From: Terriglobales bacterium
Lineage (GTDB): Bacteria > Acidobacteriota > Terriglobia > Terriglobales > Acidobacteriaceae
DNA: 38,503 nucleotides
Assembly: GCA_030038475.1 (NCBI GenBank)
Contig: JASHOU010000051.1
Span: 1-38,503 of the forward strand
Reading direction: 5' to 3'
Below, piece by piece: positions 5,200 to 26,450 of the stretch (within the stretch, counting starts at the first letter, position 1; each line of letters opens with the position of its first letter). A program made the position numbers and the translations under genes. The notes beneath the pieces are model-generated. The model was not told where the DNA came from, searched no databases, and was given only the letters and a program-made list of their open reading frames with translations.

Positions 5200-6045
5200 A
5201 TGTCCGTTCCGACACTGCCCATCGAGAGTCCGGCCGCTTCCGTAGCTGCTCCCTCGCAGTACGCCATCGAGTTCGATAACGTTTCCATCGCCTTCGATGA
5301 AAAGGTCGTGCTCAGCGGAGTTTCCTTCCACTTGCATCACGGAGAAACGAAAGCCATCTTCGGTGTTGCCGGTTCCGGCAAAAGCACGCTGCTCAAACTC
5401 GCCATCGGCTTGCTCCCGGCCGATAGTGGCCGCATCGACGTTCTCGGCGACGAAGTCACCGCCATGTCTGAGGAGCAACTGTTCGAACTGCGCCGCCGCG
5501 TCGGCATCGTCTTCCAGGAAAGCGCGCTCTTCGATTCGCTCAAGGTCTTCGAAAACGTGGGCTTCCGCCTGATGGAAGAGCACACTCCGCCCGATGAAAT
5601 CGAACACCGCGTTCGTGAGGTGCTGCGTTTTGTGGAGTTGGAACGAACCTACGACATGTTTCCCTCGGAGCTCTCCGGAGGCATGAGAAGACGCGTCGCC
5701 ATCGCCCGTGCCGTCATCACCCAGCCCGAGGTCCTGCTTTACGATTCGCCTACTGGCGGACTCGATCCCGTGACCTCAAACACGATCATCGAACTCATCA
5801 TGAAACAGCGCGATGTCTACAAGACCAGCGCGCTCCTGGTTACGCACCGTCTGCAGGACGCATTCACCATGGCGACCCACCAGTTCGACCCCGCCACCAA
5901 CCAGATGGTCGCCCTGCCCAAAGGCCAGCTCTGTGACGTGCCCATGAGTTTCCTGATCCTCCGCGATAGCAAAGTAATCTTCGACGGCGACGCTCACCAG
6001 TTGGCCACCAGCCGCGACGAATACATCCGCGAATACATCTCGTAG
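5200..6045 (+). CDS. MlaF-like ABC transporter ATP-binding protein
   Basis: ATPase partner of the MlaE-like permease. Walker A GVAGSGKST, Q-loop VFQES, signature LSGGMRRR, D-loop GGLDP and H-loop VTHR are all present in order over 281 aa. The residue after the Walker B aspartate, normally the catalytic Glu (DEPT), is Ser here: D182-S183-P-T, codons GAT TCG at 5743-5748. This should weaken or alter ATP hydrolysis unless the residue is replaced functionally; it may be a lineage feature. Two degenerate stretches follow the H-loop, as in longer MlaF homologues. The ATG is 3 nt after the permease stop. Confidence 0.9.
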   Translation: MSVPTLPIESPAASVAAPSQYAIEFDNVSIAFDEKVVLSGVSFHLHHGETKAIFGVAGSGKSTLLKLAIGLLPADSGRIDVLGDEVTAMSEEQLFELRRRVGIVFQESALFDSLKVFENVGFRLMEEHTPPDEIEHRVREVLRFVELERTYDMFPSELSGGMRRRVAIARAVITQPEVLLYDSPTGGLDPVTSNTIIELIMKQRDVYKTSALLVTHRLQDAFTMATHQFDPATNQMVALPKGQLCDVPMSFLILRDSKVIFDGDAHQLATSRDEYIREYIS

Positions 6046-6130
6046 CCGCAATTCTCACGGAGCTGCGGGCGTCCGCACCCGCTATCCCCGAGCAAGAATA
6101 TTCTCGCCTCGCCGACTTCAGGAGCGTAGC

Positions 6131-6979
6131 ATGATCTCGCTCCCGAAGGATTTCCCTATGGCTAGCGAACTGCCGAGCGGAGGCTTGGCAGTATATGTTT
6201 TTCTCGAAATGGTCGCACTAGCCTTCGTTTTTGGTGCGGTCGAAGCTTTCACGAACAACAAACCGTGGTACGTCTGGGCTGGCTGCCTGGTGCTGGGCGT
6301 CCTATTTTTTCTGGCCGGAATTAGATGGGGCACTCCAACCGGGTTTGCAATACTGGGAATCCTCGTCTGTGCCGTTCTCGCCTATGGAGGCTACCGGTAC
6401 CACCACAACACGACGACGGATAACCAACCTGTCGCGTTGCAACCGACCGAACTCTACATGGAATGCCGCATCGCGTCACTGCCGATTCACATTCCCCCTA
6501 ACGAAGTGGCTCATGTGAAGGCATTTAATAAGAAGCAATATGGCAATACAAAATCGGCGATAGATGATATACGCAACGAGGGCACAAAGGAACTGCTGTG
6601 GCCGGATCAGAGAATAATGAAGAAAGTAAAATTCCCCACTACCCCGTTTGACTATGAATGTGAGGTGACAAACCACGCCGCCGCGAACCTTATGGATATA
6701 GTGATTGCCCTTTCCGTTAACTTCGACAACGAGAAACCCCCTCTCATCTACAACGTAATAATTAGTCCGTTAGACGCCGGCAAGACATTCTCGTTTCACC
6801 TCGTCAACGAATGTCCCATCCAAGTTTCAGTGATTTCCCCAAACACGGCCACTGTTCAGGTATTCGGAGAAGAACAAAGACGAACAATCCCTCTGCATTG
6901 GCCACACCGCAGTCCCATAGAACAAATAATGATGTTTTTTCCGTCAAATGTAAGCTGGACAGGAAACGCCTGTCAGTGA
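6131..6979 (+). CDS. Hypothetical membrane-anchored protein
   Basis: 282 aa of unknown function. Three hydrophobic segments lie in the first 100 residues (roughly 20-40, 48-64 and 70-88), followed by a soluble domain of about 190 residues, rich in beta-type sequence, with cysteines at MECRI, YECEV, NECPI and the C-terminal NACQ. AGGAG 6 nt before ATG 6131 supports this start; a second ATG (6158) also has a purine-rich GAAGGA upstream. The gene is visibly more AT-rich than the mla and dinB genes around it and uses more A/T-ending codons, which suggests horizontal acquisition (inference). I do not recognise the family. Confidence 0.7.
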   Translation: MISLPKDFPMASELPSGGLAVYVFLEMVALAFVFGAVEAFTNNKPWYVWAGCLVLGVLFFLAGIRWGTPTGFAILGILVCAVLAYGGYRYHHNTTTDNQPVALQPTELYMECRIASLPIHIPPNEVAHVKAFNKKQYGNTKSAIDDIRNEGTKELLWPDQRIMKKVKFPTTPFDYECEVTNHAAANLMDIVIALSVNFDNEKPPLIYNVIISPLDAGKTFSFHLVNECPIQVSVISPNTATVQVFGEEQRRTIPLHWPHRSPIEQIMMFFPSNVSWTGNACQ

Positions 6980-7018
6980 TGCTTGTGCCTGATTACGACA
7001 ATCCCCTTCCTCTGCGTC

Positions 7019-7156
7019 TTAGCGGCCCGCTGAGCCAGTCGGCTGCGTCGATGCCGTTGGAATTACAACGATCAGGTTATCCCCGCTTCCGGGGTGCGTC
7101 ATCCCCAGATATTCCACCTGCGGCTGCGAGTCGAATCCAATATCTTTGGTCGTCAT
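7019..7156 (-). pseudogene. Short reading frame, possible gene remnant
   Basis: A 45-residue minus-strand frame too short for most gene callers. Its composition is protein-like (for example EYLGMTHPGSGDNLIVV) and the frame stays open about 24 nt upstream of the ATG before an in-frame TGA. There is no clear Shine-Dalgarno. It may be the 3' remnant of a gene whose 5' part was lost where the AT-rich parS spacer now lies, or a small protein. Confidence 0.3.
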
Positions 7157-7244
7157 GTACGCCGCATATGTATCAACATTATCATATCAACATATAAATG
7201 TACGTACACAACCATACATATCATAAGAGAACAAAATGCGAAAT

Positions 7245-7260
7245 TGTTTCACGTGGAACA
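7245..7260. promoter_or_regulatory. parS site (ParB-binding), copy 1
   Basis: TGTTTCACGTGGAACA is a perfect 16-bp match, in reverse orientation, to the Bacillus subtilis-type parS sequence TGTTCCACGTGAAACA. The CACGTG core and GTTYC/GRAAC arms match the bacterial consensus for chromosome-segregation ParB loading. Confidence 0.88.
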
Positions 7261-7300
7261 TTTTGTTCATATTGCTATGTACATACAAATATCCCCACTA

Positions 7301-7316
7301 TGTTCCACGTGAAACA
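7301..7316. promoter_or_regulatory. parS site (ParB-binding), copy 2
   Basis: TGTTCCACGTGAAACA, identical to the reverse complement of copy 1, 56 bp downstream start to start. Both copies are followed by ATTTTGT-N-CATAT, so a 28-bp segment is directly repeated with three differences, suggesting local duplication. Confidence 0.88.
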
Positions 7317-7376
7317 TTTTGTACATATACCGAGAACCCCGCCGCGACACTTCCTGGCCATGGAGCCCCTGCCCCT

Positions 7377-8699
7377 TCACCCGCCCTCCTCCGTGCCTCC
7401 GTGGCTCCGTGGTGGACCGGAAAGCTCACTCCGCTGCCTGGCCGTCGATCTCCCCGGCGGCGCCGCCGGATTCTCATGCACCCGCTCGCGGAACCCGCCT
7501 TTCATCCCTCGCGCCAACCCGATCGCCGCTTCTCCAAACTTGTCGCGCACATGATCGGCCGCCGCCAGCGCCTTCCGCCAGCGCTCGTCCCGCGAAGGCT
7601 CGAGCAAGTCAAGCTGCGCACCCATCGTCCCCGATTCGAAGTTCGACGCCTGCACACCCAGCAGCCGCACCGCCGCACCCTCCTTCCAGTTTGTCAAGAA
7701 CAAATGCCGCGCCTCCTCGAAAATCCGGTTGTCCATCTGCGTCGGCTCGTCGAGCGAATGCGCTCGCGTGATGGTGGAAAAATCCTTGTAGCGCAGCTTC
7801 AGCTGAATCGTGCGCGCAAAGTATCCCGCTTCGCGCAAGCGCCTTCCGACCATCTCGCTCAGCCGCATCAGCGTCGATTGCAACCGCTCGGCGTCGCCCG
7901 TGTCCTCGTTGAACGTGTGCTCGTGGCTCATCGATTTCGCATCGACGTTTTCTCCCACCGCAGTATCGAACCATCCGCCCGCATCCTCGCCGCGCGACTT
8001 CCCTGCCAGCGCCAGGCCCCATTTGCCGAATCGCTCTTCGAGGTCGCGCTCCTCCATGCGCGCCAGATCGCCAACCTTCTCAATGCCGATCGCGTGCAGC
8101 TTTTCCTCCATCACCTTGCCCACGCCTGGGATGTCTCCCACTGCGAGCGGCGCAAGAAACTTTGCCTCTTCGCCGGGCAGAATCCAGAGCACGCCATTCG
8201 GCTTCGCCTTTGCGGAGGAAACCTTTGCCACCAGCCGCGACGTGCCAATCCCAATCGAGCAGTTCAATTGCGTTGCCGATTTCATCTCCGCGTGAAGCCG
8301 GTGCGCCGAACGCAGCGGACGCCCATGCAGGCGCTCGGTCCCGGTCATATCAAGATAAGCCTCATCCACCGAAGCCATCTCGACCAGCGGAGAAAAATGC
8401 CCCAGCACCTCATGCACCTTGTGCAAATACTCGCGATAGCGCTCGGGATGCCCGTTTACAAAGATCGCCTGCGGACAAAGCTTCGCCGCCGTCCGCAACG
8501 GCATGGCCGAATGCACTCCAAATCTGCGCGCCGCGTACGAAGCCGCCGAAACGACGCCGCGCTCGTCGCGCTGCCCGCCGACCACAACCGGCTTGCCCTT
8601 TAGCGACGGATCGAACAATTCCTCGACTGACACAAAGAACGCATCCATGTCGACATGAAAGATAGTTCGCGGAATCGGGCCTTCAGAGGATCGGGTCAT
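7377..8699 (-). CDS. dinB: DNA polymerase IV (Y-family, translesion synthesis)
   Basis: Error-prone Y-family polymerase that bypasses damaged bases, normally SOS-related. The metal-binding motifs are visible: HVDMDAFF near residue 15 and SVDEAYLD at about 108, with helix-hairpin-helix DIPGVGKVMEEKL and a little-finger domain. QLDLLEP resembles the beta-clamp-binding motif. 440 aa is longer than the usual 350-400; the last 20-odd residues are proline/glycine-rich and encoded by a CCTCCGTG 8-mer repeat, so the stop appears to have been pushed outward. The chosen ATG also falls at the edge of an ATCGGGTS repeat, leaving about 16 extra residues before the family's usual start. No LexA box was noticed. 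Confidence 0.95.
   Translation of the reverse strand: MTRSSEGPIPRTIFHVDMDAFFVSVEELFDPSLKGKPVVVGGQRDERGVVSAASYAARRFGVHSAMPLRTAAKLCPQAIFVNGHPERYREYLHKVHEVLGHFSPLVEMASVDEAYLDMTGTERLHGRPLRSAHRLHAEMKSATQLNCSIGIGTSRLVAKVSSAKAKPNGVLWILPGEEAKFLAPLAVGDIPGVGKVMEEKLHAIGIEKVGDLARMEERDLEERFGKWGLALAGKSRGEDAGGWFDTAVGENVDAKSMSHEHTFNEDTGDAERLQSTLMRLSEMVGRRLREAGYFARTIQLKLRYKDFSTITRAHSLDEPTQMDNRIFEEARHLFLTNWKEGAAVRLLGVQASNFESGTMGAQLDLLEPSRDERWRKALAAADHVRDKFGEAAIGLARGMKGGFRERVHENPAAPPGRSTARQRSELSGPPRSHGGTEEGG
7388..7411. repeat. 3x8-nt CCTCCGTG tandem repeat in the dinB 3' end
   Basis: Units CCTCCGTG, CCTCCGTG and GCTCCGTG, followed by GTGG, lie inside the C-terminal codons of dinB (minus strand) and encode its non-conserved tail. 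Similar CTCCGTG-type words are familiar from intergenic regions of other environmental bacteria (recollection, not checked). Confidence 0.75.
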
Positions 8700-23301: not shown

Positions 23302-23676
23302 TCAGTAAAACGTCACTTCCCTCATCGGATAGTGCTTGCGGTTGCGCGTCCAAAGTTCGGCGCGGTTCAACACTGCAGCCGCGGCAATCAGCGCATCGCC
23401 GAGTTCCACGCCGTGACTTTTCCGGTAGTGGCGGAGATAATCGCCCGCCTGGCGGCCGGTTTCGGCGTCGACCGGAGCGCACAAAAGCGTTCGGAAAAGA
23501 TTGGCGAGCGCCGCGTATTCCTGCTGCCGCGCCCCAGCCCACAACTCGGCAGCGGTGACCGGCGAGTAGAGAATCACGCGATCCGATTGGCTCAGCTCAC
23601 CCCACCGCGAAAGAAGATCTTGGTCGCGTCCGCGTGTTACCTCGATGAGCACATCGGAATCGACAAGAACGGACAC
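23302..23676 (-). CDS. PIN-domain ribonuclease toxin (VapC-like)
   Basis: 124-aa PIN-domain protein. Acidic residues expected for the Mg2+ site are present: D7 in LVDSDVLIE, E44 region (TAAELWAG), D94 in ELGDALIAAAA and the C-terminal TRNRKHYP. Known VapC toxins cut tRNA or rRNA; the target here is unknown. The start is GTG, overlapping the TAG stop of the antitoxin by one base, so translation is coupled and the antitoxin comes first. Length is typical for VapC. Confidence 0.9.
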   Translation of the reverse strand: MSVLVDSDVLIEVTRGRDQDLLSRWGELSQSDRVILYSPVTAAELWAGARQQEYAALANLFRTLLCAPVDAETGRQAGDYLRHYRKSHGVELGDALIAAAAVLNRAELWTRNRKHYPMREVTFY

Positions 23677-23960
23677 TATTTCCGCCCGCCGCGTTTGCCG
23701 GGTTTGTCGTTCTCCAGCTTCTCAATCCGGCTGCCACGCCGCAAACTCCGCACGTATTGGCTGGCATTCGTGAACTCCGGTCTGCCGCGGCGAATTCCGG
23801 CTATCGCTTGCATGGCCGCCTTACGCTCATCGAGCGGGCCGAGATAGCGCTCGCGCGCAGCTTGCCTCACCAGATCGGAGACAGTTGTTCCCATACGTCT
23901 CGCGCTCGAGTGGAGCGCGCTCCACAAATCGTCGTCCAGGTAAAGCTGGGTTCGCCGCAT
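23676..23960 (-). CDS. Ribbon-helix-helix antitoxin partnered with the PIN toxin
   Basis: 94-aa protein starting MRRTQLYLDDDLWSALHSSA, typical RHH/CopG DNA-binding N-terminus, followed by a flexible basic tail (ENDKPGKRGGRK) expected to bind the toxin. First gene of the pair. The ATG touches a 19-bp palindrome (23960-23978), probably its own operator. No Shine-Dalgarno; the -10-like TATACT ends 7 nt before the ATG, suggesting a leaderless mRNA. Confidence 0.88.
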   Translation of the reverse strand: MRRTQLYLDDDLWSALHSSARRMGTTVSDLVRQAARERYLGPLDERKAAMQAIAGIRRGRPEFTNASQYVRSLRRGSRIEKLENDKPGKRGGRK

Positions 23961-26160: not shown

Positions 26161-26190
26161 CATATATCGGTGGCACCAAAGAGTTGTCAT
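26161..26190 (-). promoter_or_regulatory. Candidate promoter for the beta-barrel gene
   Basis: Minus-strand ATGACA (5 of 6 to TTGACA) and TATATG (4 of 6) with 18 bp between, about 55 nt before the ATG at 26106. Confidence 0.35.
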
Positions 26191-26273
26191 ATAAATGTAA
26201 AAACAGACTAAGTCGCACGGAAGTGTATTACGACTTCCGAGCGCCTATGCTCGGAACTTGGCCGTGGCCTACT

Positions 26274-26450
26274 TTGAGTTTTGATCCCGTCGCGCTCAAT
26301 TATTTCGCTTACAACTTCATCAAGATTCATCGTACACTTCGCACGTCGCCCTCGATGGCCGTTGGCGTTACTGATCGGCAGTGGAGCGTGGAGGATTTTA
26401 TCGCCCTCTGGGAATCCTGCGAGCAACGGAGGGCGGAAAGAGTGGCGTAG
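26274..26450 (+). pseudogene. Transposase C-terminal remnant
   Basis: About 55 residues (ALNYFAYNFIKIHRTLRTSP, then MAVGVTDRQWSVEDFIALW) match the end of a DDE transposase/integrase-type protein; the HRTLR-S/TP-AMAAGVTD pattern is characteristic. Upstream frame sequence does not continue the domain and no terminal inverted repeats are seen. It is a dead fragment of a mobile element in a lower-GC patch. Confidence 0.7.

Follow-up and report, generated by a model that had tools for sequence, protein, structure and literature searches.

The two parS sites in the window, by which we mean the whole stretch of 38,503 nucleotides that was analysed, are probably (at roughly two chances in three) one copy of a dispersed and probably mobile repeat element of the genus, a lineage among uncultured soil bacteria. 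In its complete form this element consists of a parS end, an AT-rich and TGTAC-rich spacer of about 50 bp and a solitary gene for a small basic BrnA-like protein, while many copies retain parS and the spacer without a recognisable gene. The copy in the window would be one of the gene-less kind, with two parS sites, inserted in its lineage between dinB and an ABC-transporter gene.

Site 1 (TGTTTCACGTGGAACA, 7245..7260) and site 2 (TGTTCCACGTGAAACA, 7301..7316) were placed by sequence match, strand being not applicable to either. The earlier note described both correctly: each matches the B. subtilis-type parS TGTTNCACGTGAAACA perfectly on one strand, with one mismatch on the other, the two are reverse complements of each other 56 bp apart, and they lie in a duplicated 28-bp unit whose two copies (TGTTTCACGTGGAACATTTTGTTCATAT and TGTTCCACGTGAAACATTTTGTACATAT) are identical at 25 of 28 positions. 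The A+T-rich surround is equally clear, at 67% A+T in 7160-7330 against 42% for the whole window. When up to three mismatches were allowed, the window gave six parS strand-matches at three places, a number reached in none of 100 shuffles of the window (shuffle mean 0.68); the pair is real and far above chance expectation. As read from the sequence, site 1 is an extended site with inverted-repeat arms (7229..7268), made up of GAACAAAA, an 8-bp insert TGCGAAAT, parS and TTTTGTTC. The insert recurs exactly in the copies on contigs C105 and C155 and in near form in those on C83 and C167, and the arm of site 2 (TTTTGTACATATA, 7317..7329) is found exactly or nearly in several other copies of the genome. 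Between the two sites lies the word TATGTACATACA (7276..7287), and the palindrome TGTACGTACA, a companion motif of the dispersed sites, stands at 7199..7208.

The source assembly (G000) has 216 contigs and 4.46 Mb, the window being contig C123. Over the whole genome TGTTNCACGTGNAACA was found 16 times on 12 contigs, and the reversed control was found 0 times. A chromosomal ParB, on which the reading of these sites as parS in the earlier note depended, is encoded on C156 (TIGR00180, E 3e-54, above the cut-off), with two exact parS sites upstream of parB in the parAB locus. The other 14 sites, on 11 contigs, are mostly intergenic by rough ORF calling. TGTAC or GTACA words lie no more than 120 bp from each of the 14, and from neither of the two parAB sites. 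Aligned to each other, the 14 match in blocks of 27-224 bp, with identities of 72-100%. From these alignments we infer that the 14 sites are copies of a dispersed A+T-rich, TGTAC-containing element.

Multiplied parS sites are common in the genus, where 21 of 24 genomes (this one included) have more than three, as do 9 of the 66 other genomes of the family that were searched. Dispersed sites with no TGTAC words occur in the genus at the clpB 3' end (G150, G154) and elsewhere in G150, G152, G154 and G002. Judged by distance, parS lies at about the 3' end of clpB in this genome, G150 and G154, and the flanks differ; the sites at position 3001 of L273 (G150) and L276 (G154) are those with no TGTAC, and that of this genome (C167) is inside the element. 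G040, a complete genome of another genus, has 15 parS sites; seven are at parAB, and the eight dispersed ones lack TGTAC words, which indicates that parS can be multiplied without the element. On its contig C1 there is a cluster at 1496516-1497083 and there are seven further places (L113, L097, L105, L111, L129, L130, L132, L134); one dispersed site is apparently inside mutL, as seen by eye, and the distance from dnaA to parB is 413 kb.

The window copy (7160..7330, limits approximate) has no ORF and is probably on the minus strand, if parS points towards the lost gene as we suppose. Its closest kin are the copies on C167 (78% over 137 bp) and C155 (85% over 95 bp). On the gene side of the element is a 45-aa ORF (7019..7156, minus strand) with no Pfam match at E 0.1, which is not a recognisable BrnA remnant and probably stands outside the family; a matrix of start codons, described below, also gave no brnA remnant at this copy (p 0.12 and 0.16). 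The element and a 282-aa ORF (6131..6979, plus strand) together lie in a lineage-specific stretch (6046..7376) that runs from the stop of the ABC-transporter ATPase gene (5200-6045, plus strand) to the stop of dinB (7377-8699, minus strand), so that the stop codons of the two convergent genes are 1.33 kb apart. The 282-aa ORF matched only DUF4131, below the cut-off, and had no tblastn match in the dinB loci of relatives, and a PHROGs search of three window ORFs gave nothing useful. None of the 80 dinB loci from relatives contains parS (1.19 Mb; at most 10 kb on each side and in some far less). The ABC-transporter gene adjoins dinB in 16 of the 80, none of the 16 having parS. The spot is variable, since the tblastn matches to the two genes are separated by 50-263 bp in nine of these loci and by 0.6-1.9 kb in the other seven. 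Metagenome assemblies, titled Acidobacteriaceae or Terriglobia bacterium, are the closest named relatives when dinB is compared.

Of the recent insertion suggested in the earlier note, the insertion itself is borne out in kind by the 80 dinB loci and the lineage-specific spacer, but with copies that differ as much as these do (72-100% in short blocks) it cannot be called recent. The alternative offered there, an integrated replicon, was not seen. A plasmid origin was considered and rejected: the 211-bp stretch had no match in a plasmid collection, and none of the ten window proteins scanned had a par domain.

What a complete copy looks like was learned from 60 stretches of eleven relatives, read alongside those of this genome (L275, a parAB site of G154, was dropped from later counts). 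Several dispersed parS sites lead into a small ORF that encodes a BrnA domain, and the C-terminal BrnA_antitoxin domain (PF14384) was above the Pfam cut-off in all six proteins scanned from complete copies. A profile, A1, was made from an alignment of eight of these BrnA-like proteins, whose members had first been found through parS, and it gave 48 hits over 22 genome handles, all of which were inspected with their surroundings (G003 and G152, with a hit at an identical place, are apparently a single genome). Each of the 19 hits scoring at least 79.6 bits has parS with 0-1 mismatch just upstream; eight of these are the members of the alignment itself and 11 are independent of parS. The next hit scored 70.2 bits, and only two of the 29 weaker hits have parS within 500 bp, namely the BrnTA pair of G151:C25 (an exact site about 450 bp upstream) and a gene fragment of G037:C119 (a site with one mismatch 214 bp upstream). 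The remaining weaker hits had no parS at up to two mismatches in the loci inspected, two lying 1.7 and 2.5 kb off. Of the 17 members in which both ends could be placed, 13 have parS 48-52 bp from the start codon, and in the rest the distance is 38, 41, 43 and 81 bp; the start of the G006:C502 member has masked bases. In this genome the A1 search found intact BrnA-like genes on C124 and C137 only.

The gene of the element appears to be solitary. A tblastn search with one BrnT query (E 1e-3) found no BrnT partner in the 18 parS-linked loci; for other BrnA genes the same query found one in 29 of 44 loci. Among the latter loci are 33 from virus contigs, where no BrnA relative has parS (at most two mismatches) near the gene, the one such site, with two mismatches, being about 1.95 kb away. 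A search of the PDB with profile A1 gave no match at 0.01. Hexamers with a spacing of 15-18 bp are present in the spacer of many members, though not of all, and the case for the spacer as a promoter, read from its sequence, is weak in several members. A genuine BrnT-BrnA pair, that of G151:C25 (L261), has a dispersed parS a few hundred bp away, and it could be either the source of the orphan BrnA-like family or a bystander.

Gene-less copies seem in part to be remnants of complete ones. With a start-codon matrix built from 15 intact genes, and with random stretches nearby for comparison (p<=0.05), decayed starts were recognised beside 17 of 72 non-intact sites, where about 4 would be expected, and 11 of these 17 were at +49 to +52; the other 55 of 72 fell short of that level. 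In G014, the only genome in which the distal end of the element could be defined, the full-length copy L341 is matched by five short copies, each in two blocks that flank the ORF. In the second full-length copy of that genome, L322, the tail block aligns with all five short copies and both blocks with one. The alignments skip the ORF; the short copies of G014 are internal deletions of the long form. Beyond the gene, L341 and L293-L296 have a tail with GTAATTATTACACTGTAATTATTAC-like sequence, which is possibly the distal end of the element, and the tail of L296 contains a small inverted repeat around GTGGCTAAATAGCCAC. Short palindromic repeats, CACTTCTCG..CGAGAAGTGGCGCACCC, which appear REP-like by eye, occur near several elements in L293-L296 of G014. 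In the copies inspected by eye no terminal inverted repeats, target duplication or mobilising enzyme or transposase were recognised.

The likely binder of the dispersed sites is the chromosomal ParB, to judge from the match between the dispersed variant and the variant at the parAB sites of the same genome and from the co-variation of a ParB residue. In the four genomes with TTTC/GAAA at parAB (G000, G150, G153, G154), 20 of the 26 dispersed sites share that type, 6 are mixed and 0 are opposite. In the five with TTCC/GGAA at parAB (G151, G010, G002, G015, G037), 48 dispersed sites comprise 45 of the same type, 3 mixed and again 0 opposite. For G150, G151, G153 and G154 the parAB contigs were taken from G007, G011, G008 and G020, which are apparently the same genomes, and the count leaves aside G152 (two TTTC/GAAA and two mixed sites, its parAB contig being unplaced), G028, G040, G056 and G086 (listed sites all TTCC/GGAA) and genomes listed in part. 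Both parS sites in the window are of the mixed type. The elements at G153:C99 and G151:C19 are 84% identical along a 656-bp match that starts about 310 bp upstream of parS and extends close to the gene's end. They have one flank only in common, and their parS sites are TGTTTCACGTGAAACA and TGTTCCACGTGGAACG respectively. On this comparison we take it that the shared locus switched its parS variant along with the genome.

Residue 241 of ParB, in GISREQVSN, is Q or K in one group of genomes and T or S in the other, and it segregates with the parS variant (6 and 8 genomes). Residue 274 also separates the groups, as do a few gappy columns by default. For Caulobacter ParB, S172, R173 and N178 are given as contact residues (PMC7383237). 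By our own count from these contacts, residue 241 corresponds to position 175, in the recognition helix. The variant changed at least 2 times on the ParB tree (2-4 in bootstraps), and with just 2-4 changes of type the co-variation is suggestive, not strong. A second ParB-like match in this genome (L017, C203 17420-17614) was below the threshold, at 27.8 bits.

Sequence that is identical to, and co-varies with, that at parAB suggests that the chromosomal ParB would load on each dispersed parS as it does there. In complete copies, ParB might nucleate by the promoter, spread, and silence or gate the brnA-like gene. ParB of Pseudomonas has been described (PMC4368675) as spreading from parS and silencing adjacent promoters in a test system; by analogy, with parS about 50 bp from the start codon, the BrnA-like gene would come under such silencing. 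The TGTAC words would make the spacer an operator as well as a promoter, through which the BrnA-like product could repress its own gene. If so, gene-less copies such as that in the window would have kept only an extra loading site for ParB, and perhaps SMC, away from parAB. The fuller account, of a mobile element with a centromere site as its conserved end, with an orphan antitoxin-like gene under a ParB-gated promoter, that plants ParB and perhaps SMC loading sites which co-evolve with the ParB specificity of the host, is offered tentatively and is somewhat short of probable. A search of the open-licence literature by title yielded no description of a parS-bearing repeat with a BrnA-like gene.

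As parS sites are usually markers of the origin region, the earlier note proposed that the window may lie in the origin-proximal domain. Marker genes lying at most about 8 kb from the dispersed parS sites of this genome were mapped in G015, an assembly from the same genus. There C12 holds dnaA and parB, 29 kb from each other, together with four markers (nadC, clpB, glmS and mltD) at 97-723 kb from dnaA. Four others, sdhA, ppx, yebC and the window's own ksgA, are on C10, a contig of over 1.2 Mb, while deoA is on C18 and thiC on C25; the marker from C194 matched a paralogue only. In complete relatives the distance from ksgA to dnaA is 62 kb (G040), 1.68 Mb (G054) and 1.89 Mb (G069), and gene order differs too much between genera for the window to be placed from them. 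As far as position can be read through relatives for an assembly of 216 contigs, loci on four contigs of G015 and ksgA at such different distances from dnaA point to scatter, and the proposed position is not supported. Of the mapping that the note had recommended, parAB accounts for only 2 of the 16 sites, and GC skew was weak and mixed in G040 and G015.

It is unlikely, although it is the strongest of the alternatives, that these are ordinary multi-site parS of the kind found in Bacillus, Streptomyces and Myxococcus, selected in a broad origin domain for ParB and SMC loading with no mobile element involved. Some relatives do carry many sites without the element, G040 with its eight dispersed ones being an example, and six of those eight are within about 550 kb of dnaA; the parS at the clpB 3' end of three genomes amid different flanks would fit as well. 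However, most sites read in the genus come with TGTAC words, complete copies have a gene at near-fixed spacing, flanks are alike within a genome, and the G015 map does not confine the loci of this genome to one domain.

An operator of the BrnA-like protein, resembling parS by descent or convergence and with ParB uninvolved, would account for the near-fixed distance upstream of the gene, and type II antitoxins commonly repress their own promoters. We regard this as improbable, since the perfect 16-mer is kept in gene-less copies (though copies were found by a search for that 16-mer), the variant follows that of the genome's own parAB sites, even at the shared locus where the protein is similar, the palindrome is absent within 500 bp of all but two of the 29 weaker BrnA hits, and a ParB residue covaries. 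As for the idea that the stretch separating the convergent genes is a transcription terminator or an RNA element, the window site does stand between two 3' ends and TTTT directly follows each parS, but Rfam gave only two microRNA matches, far below the cut-offs, the 16-bp palindrome has no loop, and complete copies have the site upstream of a start codon, leaving this very improbable. The repeat element with parS at one end is the reading that we prefer.

The dispersed element shares features with several known systems. With the chromosomal parS of ParABS (B. subtilis type) it has in common the 16-mer, the chromosomal ParB encoded in the genome, and, in the nine genomes compared, the variant of the genome's own parAB sites; unlike that system, the sites are multiplied and dispersed in a gene-bearing repeat, not clustered at parAB. 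The BrnA domain is common to the complete copies (the window copy has none) and to type II BrnTA toxin-antitoxin systems (PF14384, with BrnT PF04365), whereas here no BrnT was detected nearby in 18 loci, the N-terminus is rich in K and R (MKQRKRVTKR type) and parS is upstream. In their dispersed short intergenic copies and in the ORF-less internal deletions of G014 the elements resemble non-autonomous repeats of the MITE or REP kind, from which they differ in that one end is parS and the only gene is BrnA-like, with no recognised transposase, terminal repeat or target duplication. Plasmid centromeres of the ParG and omega type have ribbon-helix-helix binding proteins, and the BrnA-like protein is presumably of the ribbon-helix-helix type as well, as we take BrnA to be. 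In both, a small protein is found beside a partition site, but here the site is that of a chromosomal HTH-type ParB, and the copies read contain no ParA.

One study states that ectopic parS distal to oriC can cause severe segregation phenotypes, and that single relocated parS sites are viable in Corynebacterium glutamicum (PMC7083940). If our reading is true, this lineage would be a natural experiment on how many ParB and SMC loading sites a chromosome can bear, and a gene family derived from a toxin-antitoxin system would be linked to the segregation machinery. The variant switches would then also form a natural series of changes in ParB specificity, with as many as 15 matched dispersed sites in a genome. 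Elsewhere in the window, adjacent small ORFs at 23302-23960 on the minus strand resemble, by eye, a VapC-type toxin and its antitoxin, and at 26163-26450 on the plus strand the end of an ORF (YNFIKIHRTLRTSPSMAVGVTDRQWS) resembles a fragment of a transposase.
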